Shown here: positions 35,227 through 60,494 of the stretch, piece after piece | Position numbering within the stretch: position 1 is the first letter of the stretch | Layout of the letters: every line of letters starts with the position of its first letter | IMG/VR virus record: IMGVR_UViG_3300009130_001805 | Span: 1-64,000 of that record | Source: a virus | DNA: 64,000 bases | Reading direction: 5' to 3' (one strand) | Translations under genes and position numbers: made by a program | The notes under the pieces: generated by a model | The model's database searches: none | Told to the model about the DNA's origin: nothing | Seen by the model: only the letters and a program-made list of their open reading frames with translations

Positions 35227-35613
35227 ATGCCAATATATCTCTACGAGCATCCAGAGACTCAAGAAGTTATAGAAATCGTTCAGGGCATGAACGATGATCA
35301 TACTTTTACTGATAAAGAAGGTGTAGAATGGAATAGAATATATTCTCTTCCTCAGCTTGCTTGCGAGCAAATTAATATCGATCCTTGGGATAATAAGTCA
35401 TTTGTTCATAAAACTGGAACAATGAAAGGCAGTTATGGTGACCTCCTAGACTATAGCGCAGACCTATCAAAACAAAGAGCGCAAGAGAATGGGGGAGTTG
35501 ACCCAATCCAAAAGAAGCATTTCAAAGAATACGAAAAAAGAACTGGCCAAAAGCATTTAAAAGACAGAAAGAAAACAATTGAAAACAAAAACTTCAAAAT
35601 AGACTTTGATTAG
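35227..35613 (+). CDS. FmdB-like protein without zinc-ribbon cysteines
   Basis: 128 residues. MPIYLYEHPETQEVIEIVQG and NDDHTFTDKEGVEWNRIY match the N-terminal part of FmdB-type proteins often seen in marine phages, but the CxxC pairs of the bacterial zinc ribbon are absent here. The second half is lysine-rich (KEYEKRTGQKHLKDRKK). Function unknown. Its stop overlaps the stop of the convergent tail-fibre gene (TTAG at 35610-35613), leaving no room for a terminator between them. Confidence 0.65.
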   Translation: MPIYLYEHPETQEVIEIVQGMNDDHTFTDKEGVEWNRIYSLPQLACEQINIDPWDNKSFVHKTGTMKGSYGDLLDYSADLSKQRAQENGGVDPIQKKHFKEYEKRTGQKHLKDRKKTIENKNFKIDFD

Positions 35614-38600
35614 CCTTTAAGTTTCTTAATATCTTTTTTCAGTTCTTCAATTTGTTTTTGCTGTTCCTGTATTGCCCCACATAATACAGGTATGATTTGT
35701 TCATAAGAGATTGATAACGTATTCTCTAGCCCTCTTGTTTCTATCTCTTCTTCCCTTGTAGACACAGCTTCAGGTATAATTTTCTCAACCTCTTGAGCGA
35801 TAAACCCGAGACTCGTTTTGTTTTCTTCGTTTTGTATTTTATTCTTGAAAGATGAAGGCTTTAGCTTCAATGCTTTTTTCAGCAACTCTGCTGAGTTTAG
35901 TTTTTTAATATCTTTCTTTAGTCTTCTATCTGATGTTAACTTGACCGAAAGAGCATAAACTCCAGTCTTTTTTATGGCGGCCATCTCAGTATAACCTTTA
36001 GATAAATCATTTACATCCTTGGTTGTACGAAATACGAAATGCCCGTCCGTTGAGGAACCCGGCGGATTAGCTGTATCAAGGCTCCCATGCTTTCCAGACC
36101 CAGCATAAAGACACGCATGACCATTACCATCTGCAATTCTCATATGCTGATTTGTAACAAGCATTTTTTCGCCTATATATAAGCCAAGAACCTTACTGTG
36201 TTCATGACCTATTCTTAACACATCTCGACCTAATTCTTTACTCGCAGCATTAGCCGTAGCAGCATTATACCCATTATCTGAATTTAACTCAGACGGTGAG
36301 ATGGTCCAGTACCCATTATCTGTGTCTCTATATGAGTCAATGATATAATCACCCGAAGAGGTTGCGGAGCCCGGCTTTTTTAAAGTTACTTGCCCACCTT
36401 CTACTCCAAAAGTGGCATTTACATTGCTTTGGGGTGTAGGGTGGCATACTACTGCATGAAAATGCGCCGTAGCCGCCGTCGTTTCTTTTGTTGACAACCT
36501 AAGTCCATTATCATCATCAAATTCTAGACCGCAATGTCTATTCGGCAAATTGTTTATAAAATCTAAAGCGAACGAGGTGCTCGGAGAAACCCCGAGGTTA
36601 ATCTTAATATTTCCATCAGCATCCCTCTCAAGACCCTGCCCCGGATTGACTCCCGCCGAGTTTCCGTTGCTATCAATAATTGTAGCTCCGCTGGCTAAAG
36701 TAATATTTTTATTAAAAACCGGACTTTCATTAAAAACCGTGCTCTTAGTAAAAGTAGCACTTTCTTTAAATGTTGCAGCTTTATTAAATGTTGCAGTATT
36801 AGAAAATTGAGTTGTTCCACTAAATACAGTAGCTGCTGAAAAACTTGTCGAGCTACTAAATGTGGCAGCATTTTTTACTGTTAAAGCTTGTGTGGTAGTA
36901 GACCCGGTTAATGTCAAGTCACCCCCTGCGCTTAGTGAAAATTTTCCACCACCACCCGTTATTGCTTTCTGCACAGCAAGACTGTCTTTAAAATCCGCGC
37001 CTCCTTTGTAGTTTATTGCAAATTTTAAACTCCCATCAATATCTCCATCTATAAAATTGTTACTAGTCGTCTCCGTCGCCCCAGTTAACCGAAGAGTATT
37101 TTCTCCGCTTGATTGTTGAGCAAACCCAACTAAATACCCTTTTCTGGCTTTAGCTCCTTTTACTGTAAAAGGATACTCACTGGTCGGATTCCAGTTAAAA
37201 ACACCATCAAACCCAATCCCAACAGACCCATCGTTACCTAACTTAATTCCCTGCTTTGTGCCACCAGAATGGGTGATAAAATAATTCCCCATTTTTAAGT
37301 TTTGCGTGGCTACATGATTTCCCAAGTCATCTCCACTAACCGCAGCATTTACATACTCCCATATGCTATACACCTCTCCATTTACTAAATTACCAAGTGT
37401 CCCATTTGTTCTCTGAATTTTTAAAAAATCATCACTTAAAAAAGTCTTAGGTCCACCTATTAACTGAGGATAATTTTGTGTCAAAAAACCTCCAGTAGAT
37501 ATACCATCCTTAGATTGCCCCATGTCAGACATTAGAGCTTTCGACATATCCTTAAATTTAACCCTTCTTGCGGATTTTGAATTATCACTTTCTATAGTAC
37601 TTAATAAAAATAAATCGTGTGCTGCGGGGATTTCTTTAGTACCTAAATCGTATATATGTCTACCAACATCATTTCGTATTGACACAGCCCCTTGTGCAGG
37701 CAACGGTTCATTTTCAGATACTGAAGAGTGCCCAGAAACACTTCCATCTGTAAATGTTATAACAGTTCCATTTATAGATTCTATTACTTTATGAACACCA
37801 TTATGCCATACTAATTGCCCAACTACAAAGATCGTATTATTTGGAGGGCTAGATGATACTCCAGCAGCTCCAGCAGAACTTCCATCTGTAAATGTTATAA
37901 TAGACCCACTTATAGAATCTATTTGTTTTTGAACGCCATTGTGCCAAACCGTTTCCCCCACTGAAAAAGATGTGGTATTTGATAATTGAAATACAGCAGT
38001 ATACTCTTTGCTGCTATTCATTGTTATAGCTAAAGGATTAACTGCGCTTTGAAAAACACCTGCCGTATTAGTCCAATTAAGAAATTGATACCCTGAACTA
38101 GGTGCTGCAGTTAATGTAAGGCTAGTTCCTTCTTCATAACTTCCTGATGTCGCTCCAGATACAGAGCCTCCAGTAGAAGCAGAGACTTGTAAATTATAAG
38201 TTATCGACGGTATTTCCCTAATTACGGCATAGTGCTGAACATTCCAGTCCTGACCTGAGGGGGCGCCAGAGTCCCAGCGTCCTACGTCGCTTGCGTTATT
38301 AGGATTAAAAGTTCTTGAAAGTTGGCTTGGATTAGTGTCGTTATTATAGGTGGTAAGACTAAAGCTATCCTTTCCAAACCACCCTAAAAATTCATAACCA
38401 GCGGGAAGGTTGGAATATGAATATGTAATCGTAGAGCTACCATCGTATTCTCCAAATCCTGATAGTCTGCCCCAACTAGAATTCGATGATTGCGGACCAC
38501 TTGATCCGATTCCCCTCAAAGTGTCTTTTATTTCTACATCACTGTTGCTACCTACTCGAAAAGTAGAAGGATGGCTTGGATTGGTGTCGGTATATGTAAA

Positions 38601-39434
38601 GGTTGAATCAGACCCAATCCACTCAATGATTCCTAATTCTACTGTACCGTCGATAATAATTTTTTCCTCGAAAACCGCATAAAAACTATTATTCATAGTC
38701 ACGGTGTGAGAAAAGGTTTTATTAGTAGTTATTTGAGTTCCACTCGCATCACTTCCACTCACCCACTTAACAAATCGATGGCTATTCTGTGGTGTCGCTG
38801 TAATAACGGCAGTTTCACCTTGTGTGTAAGTAATATCAGAGGTGCCATTTGATACAGCTGAACCGGAAGCATCTGTTTCCACTGCGCCACCTGCATTACC
38901 TCCGATGGTTATGGTATATTGCGGGGTATCTTGCTCAAAAATTGCCTGAATGATCATGTAATCATCCTCATCTACCCCGATATGAGTAGGAGTTATGTCG
39001 ACGCTATTGCTGGCAGTTGTGACCATTCCTTCGTCTACAGTACGCGTCAATGGATTCTCTGTTACCACCCGACTTAGGGTATAATTTGGATGAACATGCG
39101 TTCGATCCCCGACTTCAAGAAGATAATCTATTATCCCGAGAGAGAAAAGATACCACCCTTTAAATTTATACCCTGCATTCGGCGTTGCCGTAAGTGTTAG
39201 CTGAGTATCATCTTTAATATATTCTCTGAAGTCAAGACCGGACGCCACCTTATTTACAGCGTCATCTGCGCCACCCGGCTGCACTGTCTCACTGAAAGCG
39301 GTACCGTCGACCTTAGTTCCATTGACTTGAACCGAGCCCTGACCTATAGCCTCCCCAAACTCTGCTTTGGCGTGAGGCCTCCATTTCAGTTCGTCAGTCT
39401 CATGATTCGGAATATTTACATGTAGTGTAGCCAT
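35610..39434 (-). CDS. Tail fibre/spike with S74 intramolecular chaperone
   Basis: 1,274 residues. The N-terminal third contains several InlB/bacterial-repeat-like beta modules (YTITIGGNAGGAV...ITATPQNSHRFVKWVSG; LQVSASTGGSVSG...LTAAPSSGYQFLNW). A tandem WHNGV...IITFTDGS module is repeated with a 46-residue period. About eleven six-residue repeats (NTATFN, KAATFK, ESATFT and others, near 36700-36880) form a likely triple beta-helix shaft. The C terminus is a peptidase S74 chaperone domain: TSDRRLKKDIK, SLGFIAQEVEKIIPEAV and a final coiled coil. The chaperone self-cleaves, probably at the Ser of TSDRR, after trimerisation. Host receptor binding is inferred. Confidence 0.88.
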   Translation of the reverse strand: MATLHVNIPNHETDELKWRPHAKAEFGEAIGQGSVQVNGTKVDGTAFSETVQPGGADDAVNKVASGLDFREYIKDDTQLTLTATPNAGYKFKGWYLFSLGIIDYLLEVGDRTHVHPNYTLSRVVTENPLTRTVDEGMVTTASNSVDITPTHIGVDEDDYMIIQAIFEQDTPQYTITIGGNAGGAVETDASGSAVSNGTSDITYTQGETAVITATPQNSHRFVKWVSGSDASGTQITTNKTFSHTVTMNNSFYAVFEEKIIIDGTVELGIIEWIGSDSTFTYTDTNPSHPSTFRVGSNSDVEIKDTLRGIGSSGPQSSNSSWGRLSGFGEYDGSSTITYSYSNLPAGYEFLGWFGKDSFSLTTYNNDTNPSQLSRTFNPNNASDVGRWDSGAPSGQDWNVQHYAVIREIPSITYNLQVSASTGGSVSGATSGSYEEGTSLTLTAAPSSGYQFLNWTNTAGVFQSAVNPLAITMNSSKEYTAVFQLSNTTSFSVGETVWHNGVQKQIDSISGSIITFTDGSSAGAAGVSSSPPNNTIFVVGQLVWHNGVHKVIESINGTVITFTDGSVSGHSSVSENEPLPAQGAVSIRNDVGRHIYDLGTKEIPAAHDLFLLSTIESDNSKSARRVKFKDMSKALMSDMGQSKDGISTGGFLTQNYPQLIGGPKTFLSDDFLKIQRTNGTLGNLVNGEVYSIWEYVNAAVSGDDLGNHVATQNLKMGNYFITHSGGTKQGIKLGNDGSVGIGFDGVFNWNPTSEYPFTVKGAKARKGYLVGFAQQSSGENTLRLTGATETTSNNFIDGDIDGSLKFAINYKGGADFKDSLAVQKAITGGGGKFSLSAGGDLTLTGSTTTQALTVKNAATFSSSTSFSAATVFSGTTQFSNTATFNKAATFKESATFTKSTVFNESPVFNKNITLASGATIIDSNGNSAGVNPGQGLERDADGNIKINLGVSPSTSFALDFINNLPNRHCGLEFDDDNGLRLSTKETTAATAHFHAVVCHPTPQSNVNATFGVEGGQVTLKKPGSATSSGDYIIDSYRDTDNGYWTISPSELNSDNGYNAATANAASKELGRDVLRIGHEHSKVLGLYIGEKMLVTNQHMRIADGNGHACLYAGSGKHGSLDTANPPGSSTDGHFVFRTTKDVNDLSKGYTEMAAIKKTGVYALSVKLTSDRRLKKDIKKLNSAELLKKALKLKPSSFKNKIQNEENKTSLGFIAQEVEKIIPEAVSTREEEIETRGLENTLSISYEQIIPVLCGAIQEQQKQIEELKKDIKKLKG
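36690..36885 (-). repeat. 18-bp/hexapeptide repeats in the fibre shaft
   Basis: Roughly eleven consecutive six-residue units of form xx(T/S)xFx, e.g. GTTQFS, NTATFN, KAATFK, ESATFT, KSTVFN, each encoded by 18 bases. The period and the inward-facing Phe/Val positions fit a triple-stranded beta-helix. Confidence 0.75.
37740..37962 (-). repeat. 138-bp tandem duplication in the tail-fibre gene
   Basis: Two copies starting at 37740 and 37878 encode WHNGV(H/Q)K...SI(N/S)G(T/S)(V/I)ITFTDGS. The offset is 138 bases (46 residues) and the copies share CCATCTGTAAATGTTATAA. Confidence 0.75.
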
Positions 39435-47209: not shown

Positions 47210-47234
47210 TTCCCCGTTGGAAAAAGGAATTAAA

Positions 47235-50200
47235 ATGGCACGCCCAGTAAGGATACCAGCACAGCAACAAGGATTTGAGAAGTCCGTTATGGACGCCGTT
47301 AATCGGCTGAACAGAAGCGGACAGCTCAAACTTAATGTAAACTCTAGATCTTTTACCCAACCTCTGGGGAAGATCACTGCCAGCGCGGATGAGTTTACAA
47401 AGTCTCTCGAAGCTTCTAATGCTCGTGTTATTGCTTTCGGGGCTTCTGTAGGAATCATTAATGCGGTTAGCAATGCTTTTAAAAGTTTGGTGATCCAAAC
47501 AATGGAAGTCCAAAAGCAAATGGCTGAAATTAACGTCGTTATGCAGACAGGAACCGAAGGGCTTCAGAAAATGCAGACTGGGTTATTTAAAATAGCCAAA
47601 GAAACTGCTCAATCTTTTAGTGTTGTCACCGAGGCTGCTCTTGAATTTTCGCGTCAAGGCTTGTCTATGGAAAAAACTCTTCTTGCTACAAAGCAAGCCA
47701 TGATTCTTACTAGAATTACAGCTCTGGATGCTGCCGAAGCTGTAAAAGGTCTTACTGCTGCGGTCAATGGATTTGTAGATGCAGGCATTAGCCACACTCA
47801 AGTTGTTAACAAAATGTCTGCTGTCGATGTTAATTTCGCAGTCAGTACGGAAGATTTAATTCACGGTCTTGAGCGAGCTGGAGCTGTTGCTCAGGACGCT
47901 AAAGTAAATTTTGATGAGCTAATGGGCGCCATTACTGCTGCGCAGCAAATAACCGCTCGAGGTGGTAATGTAATAGGTAACTCATTTAAAACTATTTTTA
48001 CCCGTATACAAAGAAGCTCCACAATAAACCGACTAGAAGAGCTTGGCATCGCTGTTAAAGATCTGGAGGGTCGTACGCTTCCTGCGATGAAAATACTAAA
48101 GGAGCTTGCTATAACATATGACGGCTTAGCAGATTCAACAAAAGCTGCTGTAGCCGAGCAAGTCGGTGGGGTTTTCCAGATTAACATTTTAAAAGCTGCC
48201 CTTAAAGACCTTGGCAGGGAAAATAGCGTATTCGCTAGAGCTACAGAAATATCTAATAGAGCTACAGATGAAGCCACAAAGAAAAATGAAGCCTTAAATA
48301 AGACTCTTTCAGCTCTTGCGGCCCAAACAGGCACATCAATCCAGCAGCTTTCAGAAGCTATTGGAAAGCTCTCAATGGGAGGAGGAATTGAAAAAGTTTT
48401 AAAAACTATCAATACTATCGCAGAAGGAATGTTCAAAGGCATAGAGTCTGAAGGCATTGGTGGAGATCTAGCTAGAGGACTGCTAAAAGGTATGGGCAAT
48501 ATACTTTCTGGGCCCGGATTAATACTTGTGGGCGGCATGTTTGTTAAACTATTTGGTGAGGTTACAAAGTTTGCCACAAAAAGTATGGCTAACATTATTG
48601 GGATTACCACTCAAAAGCAAAAACAAAAAGCGGTAGAAGAAGCGATCCTTAAGGTTATGATGGAAAATGAAGGCATTGAAGCTTCATTGCTTGCGATGGG
48701 TAAAAACAGAGTTCTGCAAGAAGAGCATGTACTGAAACTTATAAAACAGCAAGCAGCTGCTGCTCGAGAAAGAGCTGCTATAGCTGCGGCAGTTGCCCCG
48801 GGCCTAGTTAGGTCTGGAGTTAAAGGGCCTAGTCTTTCAATTAAGGGTGGCGCTGCTGGAGGAATCATTCCAGCTTCTGAAAGAAATGCAGAGAGAAAAG
48901 GCGCAATATCAGCTGGATACTCTCCCGGAAAAGTTTCTTCTACAAAAATAAAAGGAGTTGGAGATGTCGTATATAACAAAGCTGAATCGATAAAAGAATT
49001 TCCGGGTATGCAGCAAAAGGCTATCATGCCTCCAGAGTCTAGCAGAGCTGGCTCTAAATATGCAAAAGCGTTCAAGAAAGCTCATGGATTTGACCCCTAT
49101 GCGCCATCAGGCTTTATTCCTAATTATGGAATTGTTGGCGCTCGTGGCTCAGCTTCACTAGCTTTATCCAGAACAAATATGGTGACCCATGGAACCGGGC
49201 GAGGGCAAAATACTCGTGCCATGGACAAGAAGTATGGAGAAAGCGGAGAAAAGTTATTTGCAACAGAGACTGCTAGATTTGTAAATAAAAACACTCCAGA
49301 AGAAAAAAGAAACCTATTAGGCAGGATAATGACACGCTTGCTAGACAAAGGAATTGTTAACTTTACTCGCCCCGGATATTTTCAAAAAGAGTCTTTTAAA
49401 ACAAATAGAAGAAGCTCCGAAAAAGATTTCGATCAATTCGAGAGGCATATGGTCAAACAATTATCTAGCGAAGGATATAAAAGCACAGGTAGAGTTATAG
49501 ATCCCAAAACAAGAAAAGTCGAAGCAGGAAACAATCAATACCCTCAAGATGCTTTTGCCAAAGGCAAGGTTCCTCGAGAATTTAAAATTAATAGAATTGA
49601 CGAGAAAGACATATTAAGTAAGTCAATAAGAAGGACTACCGATCTCGACCCTCAAGACATCCTTAATGGCAAATATACAAGGGGAGATATTACAAAAGGC
49701 AATGAATTTATACAAGTCTTAAGAAATAACTTCGGCCCAAGCTCAGGCAATCACGATGAAATCTTAATGGGTTTAGTAAACAAGTTTCAAAAGTCTAACC
49801 TAGATTCAGCTTTGAATTTATTACGCCAGAAAAAGATTGATGTTCCCGCTGGAGAAGAAGCTTACACTGCCGCTATTCATGGCTTACATCGGGGCTTTAT
49901 TCCTAACTATATTGGAAGAAGGCGTATGCCGTCAAAAGCGCATCTCGAAAAAGCAAAAAAATCTATAGATATATACAGAAAGCTTACATTAAGCAGAAAA
50001 AGATCAAGAGACTACGACGGGAACCTTGCCACAGAAATTAGTAATGCTTGGGGACTTAAAGACCCAACTCACTCTACAATAGTAAAAACTTTCGGAAGGA
50101 TTAAAACCGATAAGTCGGCCCACAAAACTGTCAACGAGGAAGTTCTTGACATAATGGCAAACCCCGCAAAATATAAAGACCTTTTTAAGAAAAATAATTT

Positions 50201-53200
50201 ACCTGCACCAGACTGGTCGGCGAGCCAAGGCAAATCTGCACTAAACCTTTTTACAAAAGAAGGAAAATTTGGCACCCTAGATAAGGTAAAAATGGGCCAA
50301 AAGAGCAAGCTTGATGGAGACGACTGGGAGCAGACGGTAAGGGATATTTTTAAGAAAGGAATCAAATCTGGCTCAATAACCGACCTTAATACTATTAAAA
50401 AGAATTTTCCTTTAGACTTCAAAGGTGACAAGGGATTTCTCGATGCAACTCTAAATGTTCACAAGCTGAGAGTTATGCACCATAAAATTGCGAGAACACT
50501 AGCTCAACAAAACCCCTCTGCACTTAAAAGATTACTATTAAAAGGAAAGGATTTTGATGGGGTTGAAGCTCTTGGAGGGTTGGCGGAAATCTCTAAAGTT
50601 TCTTCTGGCATTAGAAGTCTTTCTAGAATGAAAAATAGTCGCTCTTTATTCCCTGAAGGTAAATTTGTCGGAGGCGTCGGGCAATCTACTGAAGATTTTT
50701 CTAGAAACATGCAAAAATGGTATGATGGATTAACTCCTGCCCAACAGAGTACAGCTCAATCGTCCCAAATGAGTGGATCTTGGAAGGTTCAATCTCCCCA
50801 AGAGTATCAAATGGCCGCAAGCGGGTTTGTGCCAAACTTTATTAGGATGATAAACCCATCAAAAGACAGAAGTTTTTTGCTTAAAATGTGGCAAGATAAG
50901 CTCAAGAAAGCAAAAAGCATTAGTCGTTCAGGCAAACCTAGAATAGAAACAGACCCTCAAGTTTCAAAACTTAACGCTGAAGCAAATCACATATGGGATC
51001 AAATACAATTACTAAAGAAGGGTAAGCCATATTCTATTCCTAATTTTGCAAACATATCAAAAATTAGAGAGCTAGCCAAGAGGGGTAAAGGTGGAGAAAA
51101 AGCTAATGCTCAAAGAATGCTAGAGAAGTTTTCTATAAAATCTAAAGGCATGTTTGATGATATGATTATTGATGATTTCTTAAGGGATCCAAAGATGTCA
51201 TATAAAGGGCCTTGGGGGGACACAGTAACAGATTACTTATTAAGCAAAGGTTACGATAAAAATCAAATATTAAAAGCCTCAAAAAGTCCTAGTTCATATG
51301 CCCGCGCCGCAGGAGGTGTGATCCCAAATTTTGTCCGCTGGATTAAAAATCCCAAAGGGGGCAAAGACCTTCCCAGTCCAGATATAGATCCAAGAACAGG
51401 TAGGCCAAGCGGAATATACACCAGCAGAGATATCCACGAAATGAAAGCCAAAGGCTACATGCGAACAGACGAAAAAGGCTGGCACTATGTAGGAAAAGGA
51501 AAAGTTAAATCCGCAGAAGCTAAGATAAAAGAAGAGCGCCGTTTGATGGCCATGGCTACGATTGGCCTCAGGGGAAGCGGAAAAGCTTGGATGCATCCAA
51601 AAACAGGCAAAATGTATACTGGGTCCGACCACCAACAAATTGCTGCAGATAACGGCTTATTTAACAATGGCATGGTTCGTGACTATGTTCGAATAACAAA
51701 ATCAGACCGCTCTCTTTACATAGATAAAAAAGGCCTTGATGTTAGTTCTGAGGCGATGGGTAAGCTTAAAAATATAGCTCAAGACGATTACTATAAAATC
51801 ATAGAAGACCGAGGCATACTGGGCGAAAAAGTATTATTTGACCCAAAAACAGGACCCTTCTCTGGAGGACACGTTCCTAATTTCGCAATGGCGGATGTGA
51901 TAAGAAAATATCAATCAAGAAAATCTTCCAGATTAAATAAAGATCAATTTAACGCTACAAGCGCTGCGCTAACTAAATTTAATGCCGTTAATGGATTGTT
52001 TGCTCGTACGGCCTTAGCTGGAACTAGCAGAGTTAGACTCACTGAAAGAAATTTTAATAAAGTTAGGCAATTCATTAACAGTAAAGAATTTAGACAATTA
52101 GACAAATTAACACAAAATAAAGTACTTGTCGATTTAAAATCTCAGTCCCAGTCTTTAGGATTGCCAGATGTTACTAGGGGCTACGGCCAGCATCGCAACC
52201 CTCTATTCGAAGGTCGAATTGCCGCCTCAAGCGGATTAATCCCGAACTTTTCAAACCCCCTTTCTCAGGCAATATCTAGAGAAAAAGCTGCGGGCGTGCC
52301 TGAAAACATGATAAGAATTTCTCAGTCTGACAGGCTTAAGGGGCCTAAAAACCCTAGTGGGCTTGCAGTAATAAATACTAGAGATGAACCGATGGGGATA
52401 AATCAAGGTATCAATAGATCTATTTCAATGGGGATTGACCCTAAGAGCCATGGAGCAAGCCAAGGCGTTGTTCCTAATTTTACAAATCCTCTTGCTCCCG
52501 GTAGCGTTGGACCCGCCGGCAGTCAGCTTTCAGATATATTAAAAAAAATAGGGGTATCAGGAAACCAATTAGTTTCCATCCTTACTCAATTAACTCCGGA
52601 GTTTAATAAATTTAGAGCCAACTTAAGTTCGGGCGGTACAGCAGCCAATCAACACGCCAGAAAAGTTACCTCAATGATTTCAAGTCTTGGGCTGGAAGAA
52701 GCCCAGACTAAACAGCTTATGAGGGAATTTTCTAATTTGGGCACCACTGCCAACACGGGGGCAAGCAAGCTAAAATCTTTCATAAGTCAGCTGGGCGCCA
52801 AATTAGGCCAAGGCCCACTTGGTCAAGCCGCCTCTGATGTAATGAAAAGCGGGCCAGTTCAAGCTGTAGCAGGTTCAGGCGGAATGTTTTCTATGTTCAA
52901 TCAGGGCCTTCAAGGGAATGTAACTCCATCCACTTCTAGGGCCGGTCGAGCGGGGCAAGCTGTCAATAAGTTACATGGTAAAGTCTCAAGCCCGGGAATG
53001 CAAATGGGAATGATGATGGCTCCCATGATGACTGAAATGATGGCGGAGAGCATCAGGGGCAATAAACCAAAATACGAAAGAAGTAAAGCTTCAAGAGCAA
53101 CGACAGGCGCTATATCTGGGCTCGGAGATATTGCTATGTATACAGCAATGGGAAGTATGTTCGGGCCTTGGGGAACGGCAATAGGAGCTGCGGTTGGCGC

Positions 53201-56200
53201 AACAATTGCATTAACAAAAGTTTTTAACGAAGCTTCATTATCACTAGAAGATATACAACAAAGGAACGCCAGTTACGCCGCAGAAATGCAAAAAGTCACG
53301 GGCTCCATACAGGGTTATGAAAAATCAGTTGCTGCAGTTAATCAAGCCAGAAAGTCAGGAAACTTTAACGCCACAGTAAGAGCTTCTCAAAATGAAATGA
53401 ACGCCCGCGCAGATCTGAGATTGTCAATGGGCTCTAGCTTTGCGGATAAATATATAAAAGAAACTGATAAAAATAAGAAAGCAGAATTAGCTCTAAAAGC
53501 TTTTGATGCGCAGGCTGCAGTTTCCTCCCTAGCGTCCTCCGAAGAACTTATCAAAGGACTCTCAGAACAAGATTTAGCGGGTTGGTCCCTTGTAAACTTT
53601 GGCGGAGAAGCTAGCGATGATATCAGACAGGCTGCGAATGATAACAGCAAAAACGCACAAGCATACCAATCTGCAGAAAACTCAATGATGAGAGCGGGTC
53701 GAAACTTGCAATCACTTGAAGGCGTTCTAGATGACCGAGGCAAGGAAGAATTAAAAGACTTTTTTAACGACGACAGATTCAACCGACTTGCAACGGGAAC
53801 TGGGACAGGCCCGAGCTACTCGAACGACGTAGCTGAAGATATGGCAGAAGAACTCAGCGAATTAATGCTTAGGCTTCAAGGCAATATAGATGACGATATT
53901 GGAGGTGAAAACCTAGCTCTTATTCAAAAACAATTACGTGCATTTTCTGACACAATAGGAGATCTAGATGAATCAGATGAAATTCAAGCTACCTTTGGCA
54001 ACTTAAAGAAAGGTATGGATTTGCGAGTAAGAGAAGAGCTTGATCTTCGAAGCAAGCATGCAAGACAATTAATGCAGGAATTTAACCGCTTTGAAAGGCA
54101 ACTCTCTGTGGTTTTCGCGGATATAACTCATCAATTTAAATCCATAGACATTATGGACGGTGCAATCTCTGCCGGGCAAAGACAGAGTTCAGAAATGATG
54201 ATGAGGTCTGTTGAATCTACTGGAATGCTCGGACTAGAGACTCAAGCTAGGCTGCGCGGAAGTTTACAATCAGACCAGATTAGCTCAAAATACTCGCAAG
54301 AAATTTCTGGCGCTCGCAGAGACGCTCAATTAGGATTTTCTAAACAGTTAAGCGGCAAGAATTTTTCTGAAGCCCTAACCGGCTCCCTAGGTGACCCAAG
54401 CAAATCAGGTAAAACCATGCTCCCTAAAGTGATGGGGGAATTTCTTAAAGACTCTAGTCAGTCTATTGAAGAAAGAGAGAAATTAATGCAGGGAGAAATT
54501 ACAGACGGCTTCAAAAATTTTGTTTTAAATAGAACTGAAGATTTAAACTTTAAAGCATTAAAGGATGAAATTGAGAGTGAAGGTTTTTCTAAAATAGACA
54601 AGCAAATATCTGACTCTGAGGGGCTGCTAGCAAAATACAGGAAGGGTAATGACGGAAGGACAGAATTTCAAGGAGGCAAGTCCGAATCCATATATAGAAG
54701 TCAAGGAGAGGGCATGCCGGGAGTGGGCCAAGATCTTATAAATAAAGGAGGTACGGTAGCAAAAGATTTTGCATTTAAAGGAAGTGGGAGTTCATATGAA
54801 TCGCTAAGTCATCTTTTCGATATTAAAGGTCAGGAAGGAAAAGGCTCTATAAATAATGCGAGAATACGAAGAAACTTAACTTTTACAGACACTGAAAAGG
54901 ATTTAAACGACATTTCGTCGGGAGGAATAAATTATTTTAACGATACGATAAAGCATCTTATAAAAAAATCTCTTGGATCCGACCCGAAAGTTGCAGGCTT
55001 TGAAAATGTAGACGAGATCAATCAGGCTTTTGATGATTTCATGCAGCGAAAAGTTACAGAGACGGCCACGATAGTAGGCGCAGGAGTATCCTACTCAGAA
55101 CAAGGGACTTTAGATTTTTCTGATGTGTTAAATGATGAGATCAAGTCACAAGTAGAATCCATTAGGCAAAGCGCTATAGACAAAATTAAAAAAGGGAATG
55201 AGCTGGATCAAATAAAGTCAATGCTTGACCCATCGAGCGATGGATTTTCAAAAGACATAAAAGAGATCTCAGAGTCATTAAAAACGACAGATGTAGGAAA
55301 GGAGCTTTTTAAAAGTCTCGAAGAGTTGGACCGAGTACAATCTCTTTTGAAGCAAAGAATGGCCGCAGAAGAAGCTTTACTAAAACAACAGACTGAATTT
55401 GCTATTGCTCAAGCTGGGATAATGGACGCAAGCCAAGCTCAAATTAGAGAAGCACAAAGAAGTCTCTCAAGAGTAGAATTAAATAATCAAGGGCAATTTG
55501 TTAACAAAGGAATAGAAGCTGAAAAAAGAGCTTTGAAGGCTGCCAATGCTAGAGAGCTTGAAATGTCAGCAGCTCAAGCTAATTATAATAATATAGGGCT
55601 AACATCTGGAAGCAAAGAGTTTCTTGCTACCCGAGCGGTAGAAGATAAACGAAAACTTCAAGAGCCAGCATTAATTGCAAAAGAAACAGAGATAGCATCT
55701 GAAAAAATTAATCAATTATTTACTCCAGAAAAATATGCTACACTCCTTCCTCCTGCTTTAGAGCTTGGAGAAGTGGCAAAAGAAAGAGCGGCTGATTTAG
55801 AGCGCCAGAGAAAAGACAATGAAAAAAATATTGAAATATTCAAGAGATCTTTCAGAACAGTCATGGGTGTCGCTGAAGATGCGGAGATTGAAGGCAAGGG
55901 AGGCGTTAAGGCTCAATACACAGAAGCATCCACGACAGACAAACCACCATCACAAGCCCAAACTGACGCATATAATAATTTAATTAATGCCGAATCAAAA
56001 AGAGGTTTCTTAGCTGATCAACAAAGCAAAGCAGGAGGCCCACATACAAAAGTAGTCCTAGATGCAATGAACTCCTATCAAGAGGATATCACTGCTTATA
56101 ACGACTCATTCAAAGGTATTTCTGACGCTTTCAAAAATGCTCCACGCGACAATGAAAAAGACCTGAGTGCAGCCGTAGAAGGCCTGAAGGCTAGCATTGG

Positions 56201-59200
56201 AGAAGAGATATTAAAATTTTATAGCAAAGATACTGCATTTGGTACTAAAGATCAATTTCAAAATTTATTAAAAGGAGCAGGGGAGGGCACTGCTGACTAT
56301 CAAGCCCTACAGGTTGCCAACAACCAATTCCAATCCAATAAAGAAGCCTTTATAACTAAAAATGGTGAAGCTAATATTGGAAAATTGGGGGAAAATTTTG
56401 AGGATATGCTCAATGAAGCGACAACATCAGTAGCAAACCTCAGAGAAGCCTTCCAACAAGCGGGTAAGGATGCTTCAGCTGCGGAGAAAGAAATCGCCCT
56501 ACAAAGAATCGCAAACGACAAAGCTGCTACTGCTGCTACAAAACTTGCGGCACGAACTAGATCTGTAGCAGACAGCATGACCGATCTTGGTTCAGCCTTG
56601 TCCCACATTAATGAACTTAGCTTGCAATTCATACAAGCTTCCCTTGATACAGATATGGGTCAAGCGGGAATGACTTCCTCGCAGATCTCCAAGAGGCAAA
56701 GAGATTTTGATTTAATTCGCGAGGTATCACAAGGTCGAGACCAATTACAAAGACAAAGCAAAGAAGCCACGTCGAGTTTTATTAGCCAAATTCAAGGGTT
56801 AGACATTGACGATTCAATCAAAAAAGAATTTCTTGGCAATTTCGATAACAAAGAAACTAAAGCAGGGATTGTAAATGCAGAAAGCTTCAAAGCCGCTGCG
56901 GAAAATGTTCTAAGCAACACTAATTTTTATTCTGATGCAAAATTTGCACAAGGGGTTCCAGCTTTTGGTAAAAAAGGAGCCAGCGAGGAAGACATAAACA
57001 ATTTCGCAAACAACACTTCCGCCCGAGAAGCGCTAAGAGCAGAAATTGAGAAGTCAACAAATGCTATTAAATTAAATGAACAAACAATTGGTAGAGAAGT
57101 TTCTTATAGACAAAGACTTAATTCTCTATTAGATCAAAATGCTAGATACATGCAAAGCTTTGGGGCAGGAGTCTCTGGAGCAATGAGCTCAATTAAGGAG
57201 AGATTAGAAAACTTCCGCCGTACCGAAGGAGAAACCTTAGTTAGTTCGATGAACGAAGGATTCAAGAGAAATGCCATGGGCGACTACGGAGAAGGAGAAA
57301 GTTTCTTTTCTATAATAAATGATCGCAATAGAGAGATCGTAGCCCAAAGAAATGCAGACGCTGCTACAAATATTGTATTTGGAGACCAAATTGGAAAAAC
57401 ATTGGAGGCTTTTGGGGTTGAGGGTGCCGCTGAAAAATATGACATGGGCAAATTCTGGGACCCAGAAGGTAACGAGCAAAAGCGTGCAAACGAAAAAATG
57501 CTCACAAGCTTTAATGAAACAGGAAGCCTTGGAGACGACAGTCTAGATTTCTTAAGAAGCGATCTTTTAAGCTCAAAAGATATTCAAGCTGTAACCGCAG
57601 ATAATACCCGTAAAATGGTTGAGCTACTTCAGAGCATGAAAGAGCAAGGTTTCGCGGGTGGAAATATGGGGGACGGCTCTACAGTCATGAGCCAAGAAAC
57701 CGCCACAAAAGAAGGGCAGCAAAGAATGGTTGGGGCATTAAACAACCAAACAAAACAAGACGCAACAAACACAGACTCGCTCAAGAGCACTGTCACTCAA
57801 TCAAGCAGTGATAGCGCAGGCGTAATTAGCACCATGCTTGGATCTGCGATTGGTACGTTTAAAAGCGTAAGCGGAATTAATAACGATTTCCAAAGCGGGC
57901 AGTGGGGCGACGCAGGAAGAAGTGTTTTTGACGGAGCAAGGGCTGCTACTACAAAAGTCGGAGATTGGCTTGATGATGATGAAAAGAAAGCTTTTCGCGG
58001 AGGATATATTTCAAGATTTAACTTCGGTGGGCGCGTTCCTCAATTTGGAGGAGATCATAATACCGATAATGTTCCTGCATTACTTACTGGAGGAGAATAT
58101 GTTATAAGAAAAGATTCGGTAGAAAAATATGGAAAAGATTATTTTGAAAAACTTAATAAAGGATTAATCCCTAAAGAATTTGAAGACGGGGGTGATGTCA
58201 AGAAGGCGGAAAGAAGCTGGCTTTCGAAGAAAATAACTAAAATGCAAAGTAATTTTTCTAACGAAATGAATCAGTTCAAAAACATGAAGCAGGGCATGGA
58301 GGCAAGCGAAGGAAGTTTTGCTAGCATGTTTGGAAGTGGCAAGACAAATCGCCGATCCAAAGTAAACATGGGTATGACCAAAAATGAAGGTACTGGCAGT
58401 TTTTGGACTCAACCAAAAGTTTCTAAGGACGATTTTGGTAATGACGTGGTTGAGCTTAACAGTGATCTCACCGGCCCTGCAGAAACTGAAATGAACTGGA
58501 GTAACATTGGAAATGCAGCACAACAAGGTTTAAACTTAGTAGGTAACGTTGCTAAAGGTTATCAAAACTATAAACAAGGTAAAAAAAATAGAGCCGCCGA
58601 ACTAGCCAAAGCAAGAGCGCAAGAAGACGAAAAACGTAGAAAAAGAGATTATCAGCTACTTAAACCTTTAGAGTATTATGATATGGCTGCAACTCAAATT
58701 GATCTAGGCGGACTATCAGGAAAAAGTTCAATTGACCAAGGCAAGCTTAGGCTTTCTGCCGCAGCAATGACCGGACAAATTCAAGGAGATCGATACGGAA
58801 CACTTTTAGTTAATGTTCAAAGAGCTACTCATCAAAATAAAATTAATGATAGACTTTTTGATATTGAATATGCAAAACAGGCAGCCTACGCAAAAGCAGT
58901 TGATAAGTACGAAAAGAAAAAAATGATTGCTGATTCTCTGATTCAAGTTGGTGGGTCTATAGCTAGTTTTGCTGGAGCTGGACAATTCATGCAAGTAGCA
59001 AACATGACAAAAGATTTAGCGGGAGGAGCACAAGCTTTATTTGGAGTTCAAGACCGAAGCCAAGTAAAGCCAGCAAGCCTCAGTGAAGTCATGAAGCAAT
59101 CCAAAGAAAGAAGAGAAGATTTTTCTGGCCCAGCAATGGATATCCATCAGTACGGAAGTTTTCAAAGATTGCAACAAAGATACGCAAATGTTAAATCTGG

Positions 59201-60494
59201 ATCCACTAGTGGAGCAGATTTATACCTTGGAGGATTTGAGTTAACCCAACCCGGACAGAGAGTAAGAAACCCAGCTTTATATGGTAAGACGAGAAAAGAA
59301 AGACAAGGAAAATTTTTAGGAGGATTAATAAAGCTCGCCGGAGGCGGAACTGTTAATTATGACGCTTCAAGAGTTACAAGGTCTTCTCGCCCCGATGTGG
59401 CTGGCTCAGAAAGGTCAGGAAGGGCGATGACAGGATATGATACAAAAGGTAGAGATATATATAACTCTTTTGCGATGGGAGGCCAAGTCCCGACACTTCA
59501 GAAAAAAGATATTTCTATTGGGCATGATTTAATAGATAGAATCTCTACCCCAGATAGCTTGAATCTTAACCTTGATGACTTTGAGGTTCAAGAGGTGGAT
59601 AATGCTTTTCAGCTTCCTGATTCTATTCTCAATTCTGTTTCTAATAAAGGTTCTGTTTTTAATCCCGCTATAATTTCTACGATGGCAAAAGGGTTTGACT
59701 ATCTTGCCTCAAGAAAGCAAAAGGGTGGAGATATAACTGCCCCGCTAGACCCCATGGGAATGCTGGCGCTAGCGCTTGGCGGAGTAGTTAACTCTTCAAA
59801 AAAAATTGCATCTTCTGTTTTAGGTTTAGCAAAAGGAGGTTTAACAAATTTAAAAATCAAACCTGATCTTTCTACTGGGGTCACTGCTCACTTATTAAGT
59901 ACCTACAAAAATAGTAATCGCCATGGCAAGGCAGGCGCAGACTCTATGTTCTCACAACTAGGAGCAACGATAAAAACCGCAGGACTAAGACATAACAATG
60001 AAAATCAAACTACAGGCAAAATACAGAAATCTCACATCCTTAGCGAAAAGGCTCTCGGAGGCCCCATTGAATTACAAGCGCTAACAAAATATTCTTCTGG
60101 AGGCAATGTAACCGGAGGTTCTGGAGTAAGAGATGATGTCCCTGCTCTCTTATCTGAGGGAGAGTATGTTATAAGAAAAAGCTCTGCCCAAAAATATGGA
60201 GCAAACTTTCTCAACCAACTTAATGCGGGTACTAAAGCGGTTAGCAGATTTGCTGAAGGCGGGGCAGTTGGGGAAACAGAATCTTCTCCGTCCATCTCTG
60301 AGTCTAAAGAAGTCACTCATAATATATCTCAGAATTTTACTTTTAATATTTCAAAAGATGGGTCAAGCTCCGAAAGTGAAGAAGGTGACGACATGAGCGA
60401 AAACGAAAGAGAAAAAGAATTTGGAAGAAGGGTGCGCGTAGCCTGCCTTAAGGTTATAGAAGAAGAGCGCAGAATTGGAGGCTTACTGCATTAA
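47235..60494 (+). CDS. Giant tail tape-measure protein
   Basis: About 4,420 residues from ATG 47235, with AAGGA six bases upstream. The N-terminal 400 residues carry the phage tail tape-measure signature (LQKMQTGLFKIAKETAQSF, LTRITALDAAEAVKGL, FDELMGAITAAQQ, KTIFTRIQRSSTINRLEELG). From about 620 to 1750, eight (G)x(I/V)PN(F/Y) motifs separate domain-sized segments. A Gly/Ala-rich hydrophobic stretch at about 1956-1995 could cross a membrane. A long, largely helical Gln/Lys/Glu-rich region follows. Near the C terminus two copies of the DxVPALLxxGEYVI(R)K motif occur (about 3,610 and 4,297). The protein sets tail length; at about 0.15 nm per residue it implies a tail near 660 nm if fully helical, less if the PNF region is globular. 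No lysozyme or peptidase motif was seen. Confidence 0.93.
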   Translation: MARPVRIPAQQQGFEKSVMDAVNRLNRSGQLKLNVNSRSFTQPLGKITASADEFTKSLEASNARVIAFGASVGIINAVSNAFKSLVIQTMEVQKQMAEINVVMQTGTEGLQKMQTGLFKIAKETAQSFSVVTEAALEFSRQGLSMEKTLLATKQAMILTRITALDAAEAVKGLTAAVNGFVDAGISHTQVVNKMSAVDVNFAVSTEDLIHGLERAGAVAQDAKVNFDELMGAITAAQQITARGGNVIGNSFKTIFTRIQRSSTINRLEELGIAVKDLEGRTLPAMKILKELAITYDGLADSTKAAVAEQVGGVFQINILKAALKDLGRENSVFARATEISNRATDEATKKNEALNKTLSALAAQTGTSIQQLSEAIGKLSMGGGIEKVLKTINTIAEGMFKGIESEGIGGDLARGLLKGMGNILSGPGLILVGGMFVKLFGEVTKFATKSMANIIGITTQKQKQKAVEEAILKVMMENEGIEASLLAMGKNRVLQEEHVLKLIKQQAAAARERAAIAAAVAPGLVRSGVKGPSLSIKGGAAGGIIPASERNAERKGAISAGYSPGKVSSTKIKGVGDVVYNKAESIKEFPGMQQKAIMPPESSRAGSKYAKAFKKAHGFDPYAPSGFIPNYGIVGARGSASLALSRTNMVTHGTGRGQNTRAMDKKYGESGEKLFATETARFVNKNTPEEKRNLLGRIMTRLLDKGIVNFTRPGYFQKESFKTNRRSSEKDFDQFERHMVKQLSSEGYKSTGRVIDPKTRKVEAGNNQYPQDAFAKGKVPREFKINRIDEKDILSKSIRRTTDLDPQDILNGKYTRGDITKGNEFIQVLRNNFGPSSGNHDEILMGLVNKFQKSNLDSALNLLRQKKIDVPAGEEAYTAAIHGLHRGFIPNYIGRRRMPSKAHLEKAKKSIDIYRKLTLSRKRSRDYDGNLATEISNAWGLKDPTHSTIVKTFGRIKTDKSAHKTVNEEVLDIMANPAKYKDLFKKNNLPAPDWSASQGKSALNLFTKEGKFGTLDKVKMGQKSKLDGDDWEQTVRDIFKKGIKSGSITDLNTIKKNFPLDFKGDKGFLDATLNVHKLRVMHHKIARTLAQQNPSALKRLLLKGKDFDGVEALGGLAEISKVSSGIRSLSRMKNSRSLFPEGKFVGGVGQSTEDFSRNMQKWYDGLTPAQQSTAQSSQMSGSWKVQSPQEYQMAASGFVPNFIRMINPSKDRSFLLKMWQDKLKKAKSISRSGKPRIETDPQVSKLNAEANHIWDQIQLLKKGKPYSIPNFANISKIRELAKRGKGGEKANAQRMLEKFSIKSKGMFDDMIIDDFLRDPKMSYKGPWGDTVTDYLLSKGYDKNQILKASKSPSSYARAAGGVIPNFVRWIKNPKGGKDLPSPDIDPRTGRPSGIYTSRDIHEMKAKGYMRTDEKGWHYVGKGKVKSAEAKIKEERRLMAMATIGLRGSGKAWMHPKTGKMYTGSDHQQIAADNGLFNNGMVRDYVRITKSDRSLYIDKKGLDVSSEAMGKLKNIAQDDYYKIIEDRGILGEKVLFDPKTGPFSGGHVPNFAMADVIRKYQSRKSSRLNKDQFNATSAALTKFNAVNGLFARTALAGTSRVRLTERNFNKVRQFINSKEFRQLDKLTQNKVLVDLKSQSQSLGLPDVTRGYGQHRNPLFEGRIAASSGLIPNFSNPLSQAISREKAAGVPENMIRISQSDRLKGPKNPSGLAVINTRDEPMGINQGINRSISMGIDPKSHGASQGVVPNFTNPLAPGSVGPAGSQLSDILKKIGVSGNQLVSILTQLTPEFNKFRANLSSGGTAANQHARKVTSMISSLGLEEAQTKQLMREFSNLGTTANTGASKLKSFISQLGAKLGQGPLGQAASDVMKSGPVQAVAGSGGMFSMFNQGLQGNVTPSTSRAGRAGQAVNKLHGKVSSPGMQMGMMMAPMMTEMMAESIRGNKPKYERSKASRATTGAISGLGDIAMYTAMGSMFGPWGTAIGAAVGATIALTKVFNEASLSLEDIQQRNASYAAEMQKVTGSIQGYEKSVAAVNQARKSGNFNATVRASQNEMNARADLRLSMGSSFADKYIKETDKNKKAELALKAFDAQAAVSSLASSEELIKGLSEQDLAGWSLVNFGGEASDDIRQAANDNSKNAQAYQSAENSMMRAGRNLQSLEGVLDDRGKEELKDFFNDDRFNRLATGTGTGPSYSNDVAEDMAEELSELMLRLQGNIDDDIGGENLALIQKQLRAFSDTIGDLDESDEIQATFGNLKKGMDLRVREELDLRSKHARQLMQEFNRFERQLSVVFADITHQFKSIDIMDGAISAGQRQSSEMMMRSVESTGMLGLETQARLRGSLQSDQISSKYSQEISGARRDAQLGFSKQLSGKNFSEALTGSLGDPSKSGKTMLPKVMGEFLKDSSQSIEEREKLMQGEITDGFKNFVLNRTEDLNFKALKDEIESEGFSKIDKQISDSEGLLAKYRKGNDGRTEFQGGKSESIYRSQGEGMPGVGQDLINKGGTVAKDFAFKGSGSSYESLSHLFDIKGQEGKGSINNARIRRNLTFTDTEKDLNDISSGGINYFNDTIKHLIKKSLGSDPKVAGFENVDEINQAFDDFMQRKVTETATIVGAGVSYSEQGTLDFSDVLNDEIKSQVESIRQSAIDKIKKGNELDQIKSMLDPSSDGFSKDIKEISESLKTTDVGKELFKSLEELDRVQSLLKQRMAAEEALLKQQTEFAIAQAGIMDASQAQIREAQRSLSRVELNNQGQFVNKGIEAEKRALKAANARELEMSAAQANYNNIGLTSGSKEFLATRAVEDKRKLQEPALIAKETEIASEKINQLFTPEKYATLLPPALELGEVAKERAADLERQRKDNEKNIEIFKRSFRTVMGVAEDAEIEGKGGVKAQYTEASTTDKPPSQAQTDAYNNLINAESKRGFLADQQSKAGGPHTKVVLDAMNSYQEDITAYNDSFKGISDAFKNAPRDNEKDLSAAVEGLKASIGEEILKFYSKDTAFGTKDQFQNLLKGAGEGTADYQALQVANNQFQSNKEAFITKNGEANIGKLGENFEDMLNEATTSVANLREAFQQAGKDASAAEKEIALQRIANDKAATAATKLAARTRSVADSMTDLGSALSHINELSLQFIQASLDTDMGQAGMTSSQISKRQRDFDLIREVSQGRDQLQRQSKEATSSFISQIQGLDIDDSIKKEFLGNFDNKETKAGIVNAESFKAAAENVLSNTNFYSDAKFAQGVPAFGKKGASEEDINNFANNTSAREALRAEIEKSTNAIKLNEQTIGREVSYRQRLNSLLDQNARYMQSFGAGVSGAMSSIKERLENFRRTEGETLVSSMNEGFKRNAMGDYGEGESFFSIINDRNREIVAQRNADAATNIVFGDQIGKTLEAFGVEGAAEKYDMGKFWDPEGNEQKRANEKMLTSFNETGSLGDDSLDFLRSDLLSSKDIQAVTADNTRKMVELLQSMKEQGFAGGNMGDGSTVMSQETATKEGQQRMVGALNNQTKQDATNTDSLKSTVTQSSSDSAGVISTMLGSAIGTFKSVSGINNDFQSGQWGDAGRSVFDGARAATTKVGDWLDDDEKKAFRGGYISRFNFGGRVPQFGGDHNTDNVPALLTGGEYVIRKDSVEKYGKDYFEKLNKGLIPKEFEDGGDVKKAERSWLSKKITKMQSNFSNEMNQFKNMKQGMEASEGSFASMFGSGKTNRRSKVNMGMTKNEGTGSFWTQPKVSKDDFGNDVVELNSDLTGPAETEMNWSNIGNAAQQGLNLVGNVAKGYQNYKQGKKNRAAELAKARAQEDEKRRKRDYQLLKPLEYYDMAATQIDLGGLSGKSSIDQGKLRLSAAAMTGQIQGDRYGTLLVNVQRATHQNKINDRLFDIEYAKQAAYAKAVDKYEKKKMIADSLIQVGGSIASFAGAGQFMQVANMTKDLAGGAQALFGVQDRSQVKPASLSEVMKQSKERREDFSGPAMDIHQYGSFQRLQQRYANVKSGSTSGADLYLGGFELTQPGQRVRNPALYGKTRKERQGKFLGGLIKLAGGGTVNYDASRVTRSSRPDVAGSERSGRAMTGYDTKGRDIYNSFAMGGQVPTLQKKDISIGHDLIDRISTPDSLNLNLDDFEVQEVDNAFQLPDSILNSVSNKGSVFNPAIISTMAKGFDYLASRKQKGGDITAPLDPMGMLALALGGVVNSSKKIASSVLGLAKGGLTNLKIKPDLSTGVTAHLLSTYKNSNRHGKAGADSMFSQLGATIKTAGLRHNNENQTTGKIQKSHILSEKALGGPIELQALTKYSSGGNVTGGSGVRDDVPALLSEGEYVIRKSSAQKYGANFLNQLNAGTKAVSRFAEGGAVGETESSPSISESKEVTHNISQNFTFNISKDGSSSESEEGDDMSENEREKEFGRRVRVACLKVIEEERRIGGLLH

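Follow-up and report, generated by a model that had tools for sequence, protein, structure and literature searches.

A conserved peptide motif bounds exchangeable modules, possibly cargo, in the tape measure protein of uncultured phages

Phage tape measure proteins are known as rulers and as conduits for DNA entry, and a few enzyme fusions of them are known. A tape measure gene in the 64 000-nucleotide (nt) window analysed here (positions 1 to 64,000 of the 78.9-kb IMG/VR viral record IMGVR_UViG_3300009130_001805) raises the question of why such a protein should repeat one short peptide, of the form GxIPNF, eight times, and what the segments between the copies are. An earlier note on the window had described these motifs as dividing the protein into domain-sized segments, which might be cargo domains delivered with the DNA, and had considered the motifs as linkers, protease-processing sites or docking sites. 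The sequences show distinct modules and a conserved motif. Whole modules have been exchanged, the joints falling in the DNA that encodes the motif, and both the peptide and the module proteins are under selection. These observations suggest that the region is probably a cassette array of cargo modules built into the tape measure protein, whose delivery into the host cell we infer.

The open reading frame (ORF) was assigned with an ATG start (Table 1); an alternative upstream start, the TTG at 47217, is also open, and the protein has 4425 amino acids (aa) counted from that TTG. The ORF exceeds the curated cut-offs for a phage tape measure protein of the TP901/PhageMin_Tail type, as it matches TIGR01760 (E value 2.5e-23; 82.7 bits, cut-off 28.8) and PF10145 (E value 1.6e-21; 77.5 bits, cut-off 33.2), and it is also matched by phrog_4211 (E value 2.4e-50). 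All eight motifs lie in frame within this single ORF where they had been placed, and the residue numbers given earlier (626 to 1744) are correct if the ATG at 47235 is taken as residue 1. Shuffles that preserve the composition gave a mean of 0.076 copies in the whole protein and 0.042 in aa 600-1800, against the eight observed. When the window was translated in all six frames, the remaining matches to the pattern were out of frame with this ORF and did not belong to genuine genes.

Relatives were sought in IMG/VR: two were found by the N-terminal part of the protein and 63 by its last module, B, and a further search used the conserved N-terminal core as an alignment, with a selection blind to the motif, and kept 80 out of 164. 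The merged set comprises 119 related tape measures, from uncultured phages throughout, and many of the loci are fragments. In the motif-blind set, at least one PN[FYWL] motif is present in 77 of the 80 tape measures and at least three in 70; two of the three proteins without it are cut short before the array. In total, the 119 tape measures hold 679 motif copies, where 24.7 are expected, and this excess, like that in the window, rules out a chance or low-complexity recurrence. From 4 to 13 motifs per tape measure is the norm, and the first one stands at mean residue 583 with a standard deviation of 54 (84 complete proteins). The carriers form a large group of phages, uncultured and for the most part marine. 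The array is absent from all phages of INPHARED, where homology is restricted to the N-terminal tape measure part at no more than ∼31% identity. The last module also occurs in GTDB genome contigs, in metagenome-assembled bins of Halobacteriovorax, Verrucomicrobiales and Flavobacteriaceae (L075, L076, L077), which are possible hints to hosts, the binning of phage contigs being weak host evidence.

When the back-translated GFIPNFA pattern alone was run against IMG/VR, 70 of the 80 loci among the matches listed had it in an ORF homologous to this tape measure family; in the other 10 it lay mostly in short ORFs, and some of the 80 were contigs already in the set. The strict motif was confined to tape measure ORFs among the loci searched for it. 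A near-match outside the tape measure, GGIVPNLN, was seen in a 912-residue ORF 3' of it (G000 67960-70695). Over non-redundant copies, the consensus is [AS]-x-G-[FLYH]-[IV]-P-N-[FY]-[A>S]. Its [IV]PN[FY] core is encoded by 123 different 12-mers among 511 copies; the codons for Gly, Asn and Phe follow the background of the same ORFs, and those for Pro and Val are moderately biased. Since codon choice at the motif is free to vary, selection acts on the peptide and not on a DNA site, and an att-like or programmed recombination site in the DNA was ruled out by this variation. We also noted a cousin of the motif, GGxxPxF, in the C-terminal part of the protein: it reads GGRVPQF in the window, directly 5' of a GEYVI element, and often AGGxIPGF/Y in the C-terminal parts of relatives' tape measures (L043-L058).

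The segments between motifs, here designated by letters, were grouped into families by BLAST clustering (iterative clustering over-merged the families and was not used). They form 34 families and 39 singletons, and their order changes; across the 119 tape measures, modules are ∼60-400 residues long. As to order, the window reads A-P-L-C-V-D-B, and examples from relatives are A-J-C-Q-B, A-J-C-G-N-B and A-J-C-R-Y-K-Q-N-B. The pre-module that precedes motif 1 in the window is present in 95 of the 119 tape measures and in some of them occurs also later in the array.

Comparison of close relatives shows the exchange of whole modules. The tape measure of L002 is 88% identical to that of the window over aa 1-1372 and is missing V and D, with the joint at a motif, and L001 has three more modules than the window, at motif 3. 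In L022 and L024, a single module is wholly different, with 100% protein identity on either side, and the DNA identity stops and restarts within the motif. An assembly chimera is unlikely at this place, because L023, a separate assembly, has the module family of L024 there. Further whole-module differences were found in the close pairs L012/L013, L012/L008 and L010/L008. When breakpoints were defined as the ends of DNA matches at ≥85% identity, 168 of the 241 from all pairs (∼70%) had a motif start no more than 15 nt away; for positions drawn at random from the array, the figure is 7.7%. Moreover, modules Y-K of L010 and L029 share ∼90% DNA identity, whereas the N-terminal parts share just 64% protein identity; modules thus move between lineages. 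The segment swapping that the earlier note proposed to look for is thus borne out, and the sequences add a point absent from it, namely that the motif-coding DNA is a recombination seam too: the peptide motif brings a short in-frame DNA homology to each boundary, so that it doubles as the place of module recombination. Separately, L022 and L024 carry two tandem K modules (tape measure aa 658-996) with 100% DNA identity across both loci, which by their sequence are a recent tandem duplication of a module.

Between the window and L002, the ratio of non-synonymous to synonymous substitution (dN/dS) is 0.03 in both the N-terminal domain and module A; the other modules compared have 0.06 (C), 0.10 (L), 0.17 (B) and 0.21 (P). 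These values indicate purifying selection on the module proteins A, L, C and B. A different pattern was noted for module J (∼aa 868-1236; L008, L010, L012), whose dN/dS is 0.67-0.93, against 0-0.16 for other comparable modules of the same proteins; module J may be under diversifying or relaxed selection.

Structure prediction was applied to module A and to the D+B segment. The AlphaFold2 model of module A (29 sequences) has a predicted local distance difference test score (pLDDT) of 88.8 and a predicted template modelling score of 0.84, and both flanking motifs are mostly below 50, a value that is weak on its own at termini, which are often low in pLDDT. The model places a helix-strands-helix arrangement around the putative active-site residues. 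In the D+B model, two folded domains (pLDDT ∼90 for D and ∼80-87 for B) are connected by a stretch that contains the internal motif 7 at pLDDT ∼34-42. According to these models, the motif sits in disordered linkers between folded domains. The view that the motifs separate distinct small domains is therefore supported by the module families and by two models. Because the predicted linkers stand outside the folded domains and the motif is conserved in relatives, neither of the two outcomes named beforehand as contrary to it, motifs embedded in one continuous fold or not conserved in related proteins, was observed. The structure prediction and fold search that had been suggested for the segments (A; D+B) thus returned folded domains, and no significant match to an enzyme fold.

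Several modules carry enzyme signals. Module A was aligned from 29 divergent sequences, with ∼14-28% identity to the window except for the two closest, and its sole invariant columns are D147, E157, K159 and K171; E111 is kept in ≥90%. These residues fit the D ... (D/E)xK active-site signature, which makes module A a putative nuclease. It is the only module of the window array with an enzyme signature, and the other enzyme-like modules occur in relatives. Module M (L011, L019, L021, L031, L127) scores above the profile cut-off for an SNase domain (PF00565, 21.9 bits; cut-off 21.0) and aligns with thermonuclease chains (E value 8.8e-7, profile positions 15-135 of 216). Module Q (L008, L010, L012, L154) is, by profile and motifs, polynucleotide-kinase 3'-phosphatase/HAD-like: the polynucleotide kinase profile phrog_415 matches Q of L010 over the module (E value 3.7e-5), and the HAD motifs DFDET, TAR, K and DDAPEN were recognised by eye, the NCBIfam HAD match having an E value of 0.067 only. 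Module G and its relatives resemble ART enzymes of the R-S-ExE type, with LYRG and E-x-E invariant in eight sequences and STS mostly retained, and ART-like residues were found by profile in 17 tape measures. Finally, one module of L065 is matched by five GNAT models, the best being PF13673 (E value 4.2e-4), under the curated cut-offs, and visual inspection suggested HExxH-type modules in two of the arrays (L065, L066). Defence-gene profiles gave no match to the arrays, and Pfam scans of the arrays recognised no cell-wall hydrolase.

Table 1. The tape measure gene of the window and its parts (nucleotide positions in the window)
Feature	Position	Strand	Remarks
Tape measure protein ORF	47235..60494	+	ATG start; end includes stop codon
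N-terminal tape measure domain (TIGR01760)	47463..48419	+	aa 83-401, TTG numbering
Pre-module 5' of motif 1, VVYNxxE...AIxPPxxSxAG...HGFDPY	48894..49109	+	
Motif 1, GFIPNY	49110..49127	+	
Module A, PD-(D/E)xK-like domain	49128..49892	+	homologues in 42/119 tape measures, array position varies
Module A conserved Glu, E111 of alignment A6, putative active-site residue	49440..49442	+	
Module A invariant Asp, D147, putative active-site residue	49548..49550	+	
Module A invariant E-x-K (E157, K159), putative active-site residues	49578..49586	+	
Motif 2, GFIPNY	49893..49910	+	
Module P	49911..50822	+	homologues in L001 and L002 only
Motif 3, GFVPNF	50823..50840	+	L001 has three additional modules here
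Module L	50841..51032	+	
Motif 4, SIPNF	51033..51047	+	variant without Gly
Module C	51048..51314	+	homologues in 24 tape measures
Motif 5, GVIPNF	51315..51332	+	5' joint of two-module difference from L002
Module V	51333..51866	+	missing from L002; sole homologue partial (L154)
Motif 6, GHVPNF	51867..51884	+	
Module D, helical domain	51885..52232	+	homologues in 20 tape measures; missing from L002
Motif 7, GLIPNF	52233..52250	+	disordered linker between D and B (predicted); 3' joint of L002 difference
Module B (NPL..INTRDEP)	52251..52463	+	last or near-last module; homologues in 105/119 tape measures
Motif 8, GVVPNF	52464..52481	+	array end
Remainder of tape measure, presumed ruler and tip part	52482..60491	+	
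C-terminal motif cousin, (G)GRVPQF	58029..58046	+	precedes D.VPALLTGGEYVI

Taken as a cargo array, the protein would consist of folded modules, several of them enzyme-like, strung on motif-bearing disordered linkers after the N-terminal tape measure domain. The modules would leave the virion with the tape measure and, through nucleic-acid- and protein-modifying activities, act in the host cell early in infection, in the manner proposed for the RNA polymerase fused to the tape measure of phage P23-45. Less certainly, the motif peptide would have a binding partner that serves the tape measure specifically. We tentatively favour a docking or retention peptide, for which the partner might be a tail chaperone, the wall of the tube or a second copy of the tape measure, over proteolytic release and over a pure linker. 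The fuller idea of plug-and-play delivery, in which the tape measure would be a magazine of exchangeable injected enzymes and GxIPNF would hold or release the cartridges and enable their recombination, appears to us evenly balanced. The suggestion that the segments are cargo domains has thus gained enzyme-like modules and a published fusion of an enzyme to a tape measure, and delivery itself stays at the level of conjecture.

Several observations weigh against a cargo array. The phages with the array are all uncultured, and delivery of the modules and docking or cleavage at the motif are hypothetical. Most modules have no recognisable function, among them all those of the window array except A (P, L, C, V, D, B). 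For module A, no profile match was obtained among PDB sequences, and neither Foldseek nor VIA matched its model significantly to any structure of PDB or BFVD, so that the nuclease assignment rests on residue conservation; weak BFVD rows (Holliday junction resolvase, PD(D/E)XK endonuclease) have E values >1 and were not used as evidence. The D+B model found no significant structural match in PDB, and when the ART-like modules were compared with PDB sequences, none of the matches was an ART. Kinase-like modules spotted by eye in L041 and L042 obtained no support from Pfam, NCBIfam or PDB and are not claimed. As for the joints, the breakpoints are not independent, because related genomes repeat the same events, and ∼30% of them lie away from any motif.

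Among the alternatives, the one that survives best, and which we consider doubtful, is that the motif is a processing site, at which a phage or host protease would cut each GxxPNF and free the modules as separate proteins. The predicted exposure of the motif in disordered linkers, its conservation at the peptide and not the DNA level and the HExxH-type modules of L065 and L066 would all be consistent with cleavage, and a paper on polyvalent proteins argues for separation by peptidases (PMC5512222). However, no ORF other than the tape measure had the strict motif in the loci searched, so that no other virion substrate was seen, a peptidase-like module occurs in just two arrays, and no conserved protease was identified beside the gene. 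A docking partner is preferred to a general virion protease because P-N-[FY] is strict and the motif is restricted to the tape measure.

It is unlikely that the motif is a mere flexible linker with no partner, its sequence kept as homology for in-frame recombination of modules. The joints within the motif DNA and the predicted disorder would suit such a linker, but the synonymous codons vary (the 123 12-mers mentioned above), which weakens the DNA homology, and yet P-N-[FY] is fixed, which a plain linker does not need. Distinctly less probable is that the array is part of the ruler, with modules as structural spacers tuning tail length and a vestigial resemblance to enzymes. The array does lie inside the tape measure and motif number follows protein length (Spearman 0.74), but modules A and D are predicted to be compact domains and not long helices, and the invariant columns of module A are mostly putative active-site residues. 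Moreover, in L008, L010, L012 and L013, the post-array part measures 2071-2112 aa (for the last three on loci as retrieved), whereas the array ranges from 938 to 1755 aa; a plain ruler is unlikely since post-array length is steady while array length varies. Finally, selfish, homing-endonuclease-like insertions invading the gene at a conserved site are hardly credible, for although nuclease-like modules occur and one report places nuclease genes where stretches exchanged between phages begin or end (PMC10448857), most modules have no nuclease signature, their order is shuffled, 4-13 motifs are usual, the modules are in frame within the protein and no element for splicing was recognised.

Other genes of the phage were also noted. 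The genes 3' of the tape measure (G000 60452-78877, locus L078) resemble by eye a lambda-type tail tip, with JAB/K-like, I-like and J-like proteins, and on this reading point to a long non-contractile tail. On the minus strand of the window, 35610-39434 holds a large tail fibre gene (PHROG tail fibre matches down to an E value of 3.8e-27).

If the modules are cargo, the tails of a widespread, uncultured phage group would contain a fast-changing set of enzymes for early infection, and such arrays could be traced in metagenomes with the motif as a marker. The array also makes testable the passage of a folded enzyme through the tail tube and the contribution of inserted cargo to tail length. A limited literature search (open-licence papers, preprints not covered) found no prior description of a motif-bounded array.

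By analogy, the closest precedent for an enzyme-bearing tape measure is gp96 of Thermus phage P23-45, a 5002-aa tape measure whose N-terminal part includes a virion RNA polymerase; this enzyme is proposed to act during genome entry into the cell (PMC10770324). Both are giant tape measures, but P23-45 has a single RNA polymerase domain, whereas here many exchangeable small modules, several of them enzyme-like, follow the N-terminal domain and one shared peptide bounds each. For the domain mix, the best analogue is the class of polyvalent proteins described from phages and from conjugative elements (Iyer et al. 2017), which combine many catalytic and other domains and are proposed to enter with the DNA (PMC5512222; the terms 'tape measure' and 'PNF' are absent from its main text); ART and GNAT domains have been reported for them (PMC7824862). 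They share with the array the presence of many domains in one polypeptide and a changing order, the catalytic domains of the array being putative. In contrast, the carrier here is the tape measure itself, with one peptide at each boundary. Enzyme domains within tape measures are also found as peptidoglycan hydrolases, for example in Staphylococcus phage phiIPLA35 and in pb2 of phage T5, according to references in PMC6145125; these act on the cell wall and do not stand in motif-bounded arrays. Finally, a survey of domain mosaicism in phage proteins reported a mosaic signal in tape measures, in which genuine recent mosaicism could not be confirmed by its authors (PMC10684548). The shuffling of protein fragments is common to both cases, but the joints described here are located with single-base resolution and coincide with a motif.

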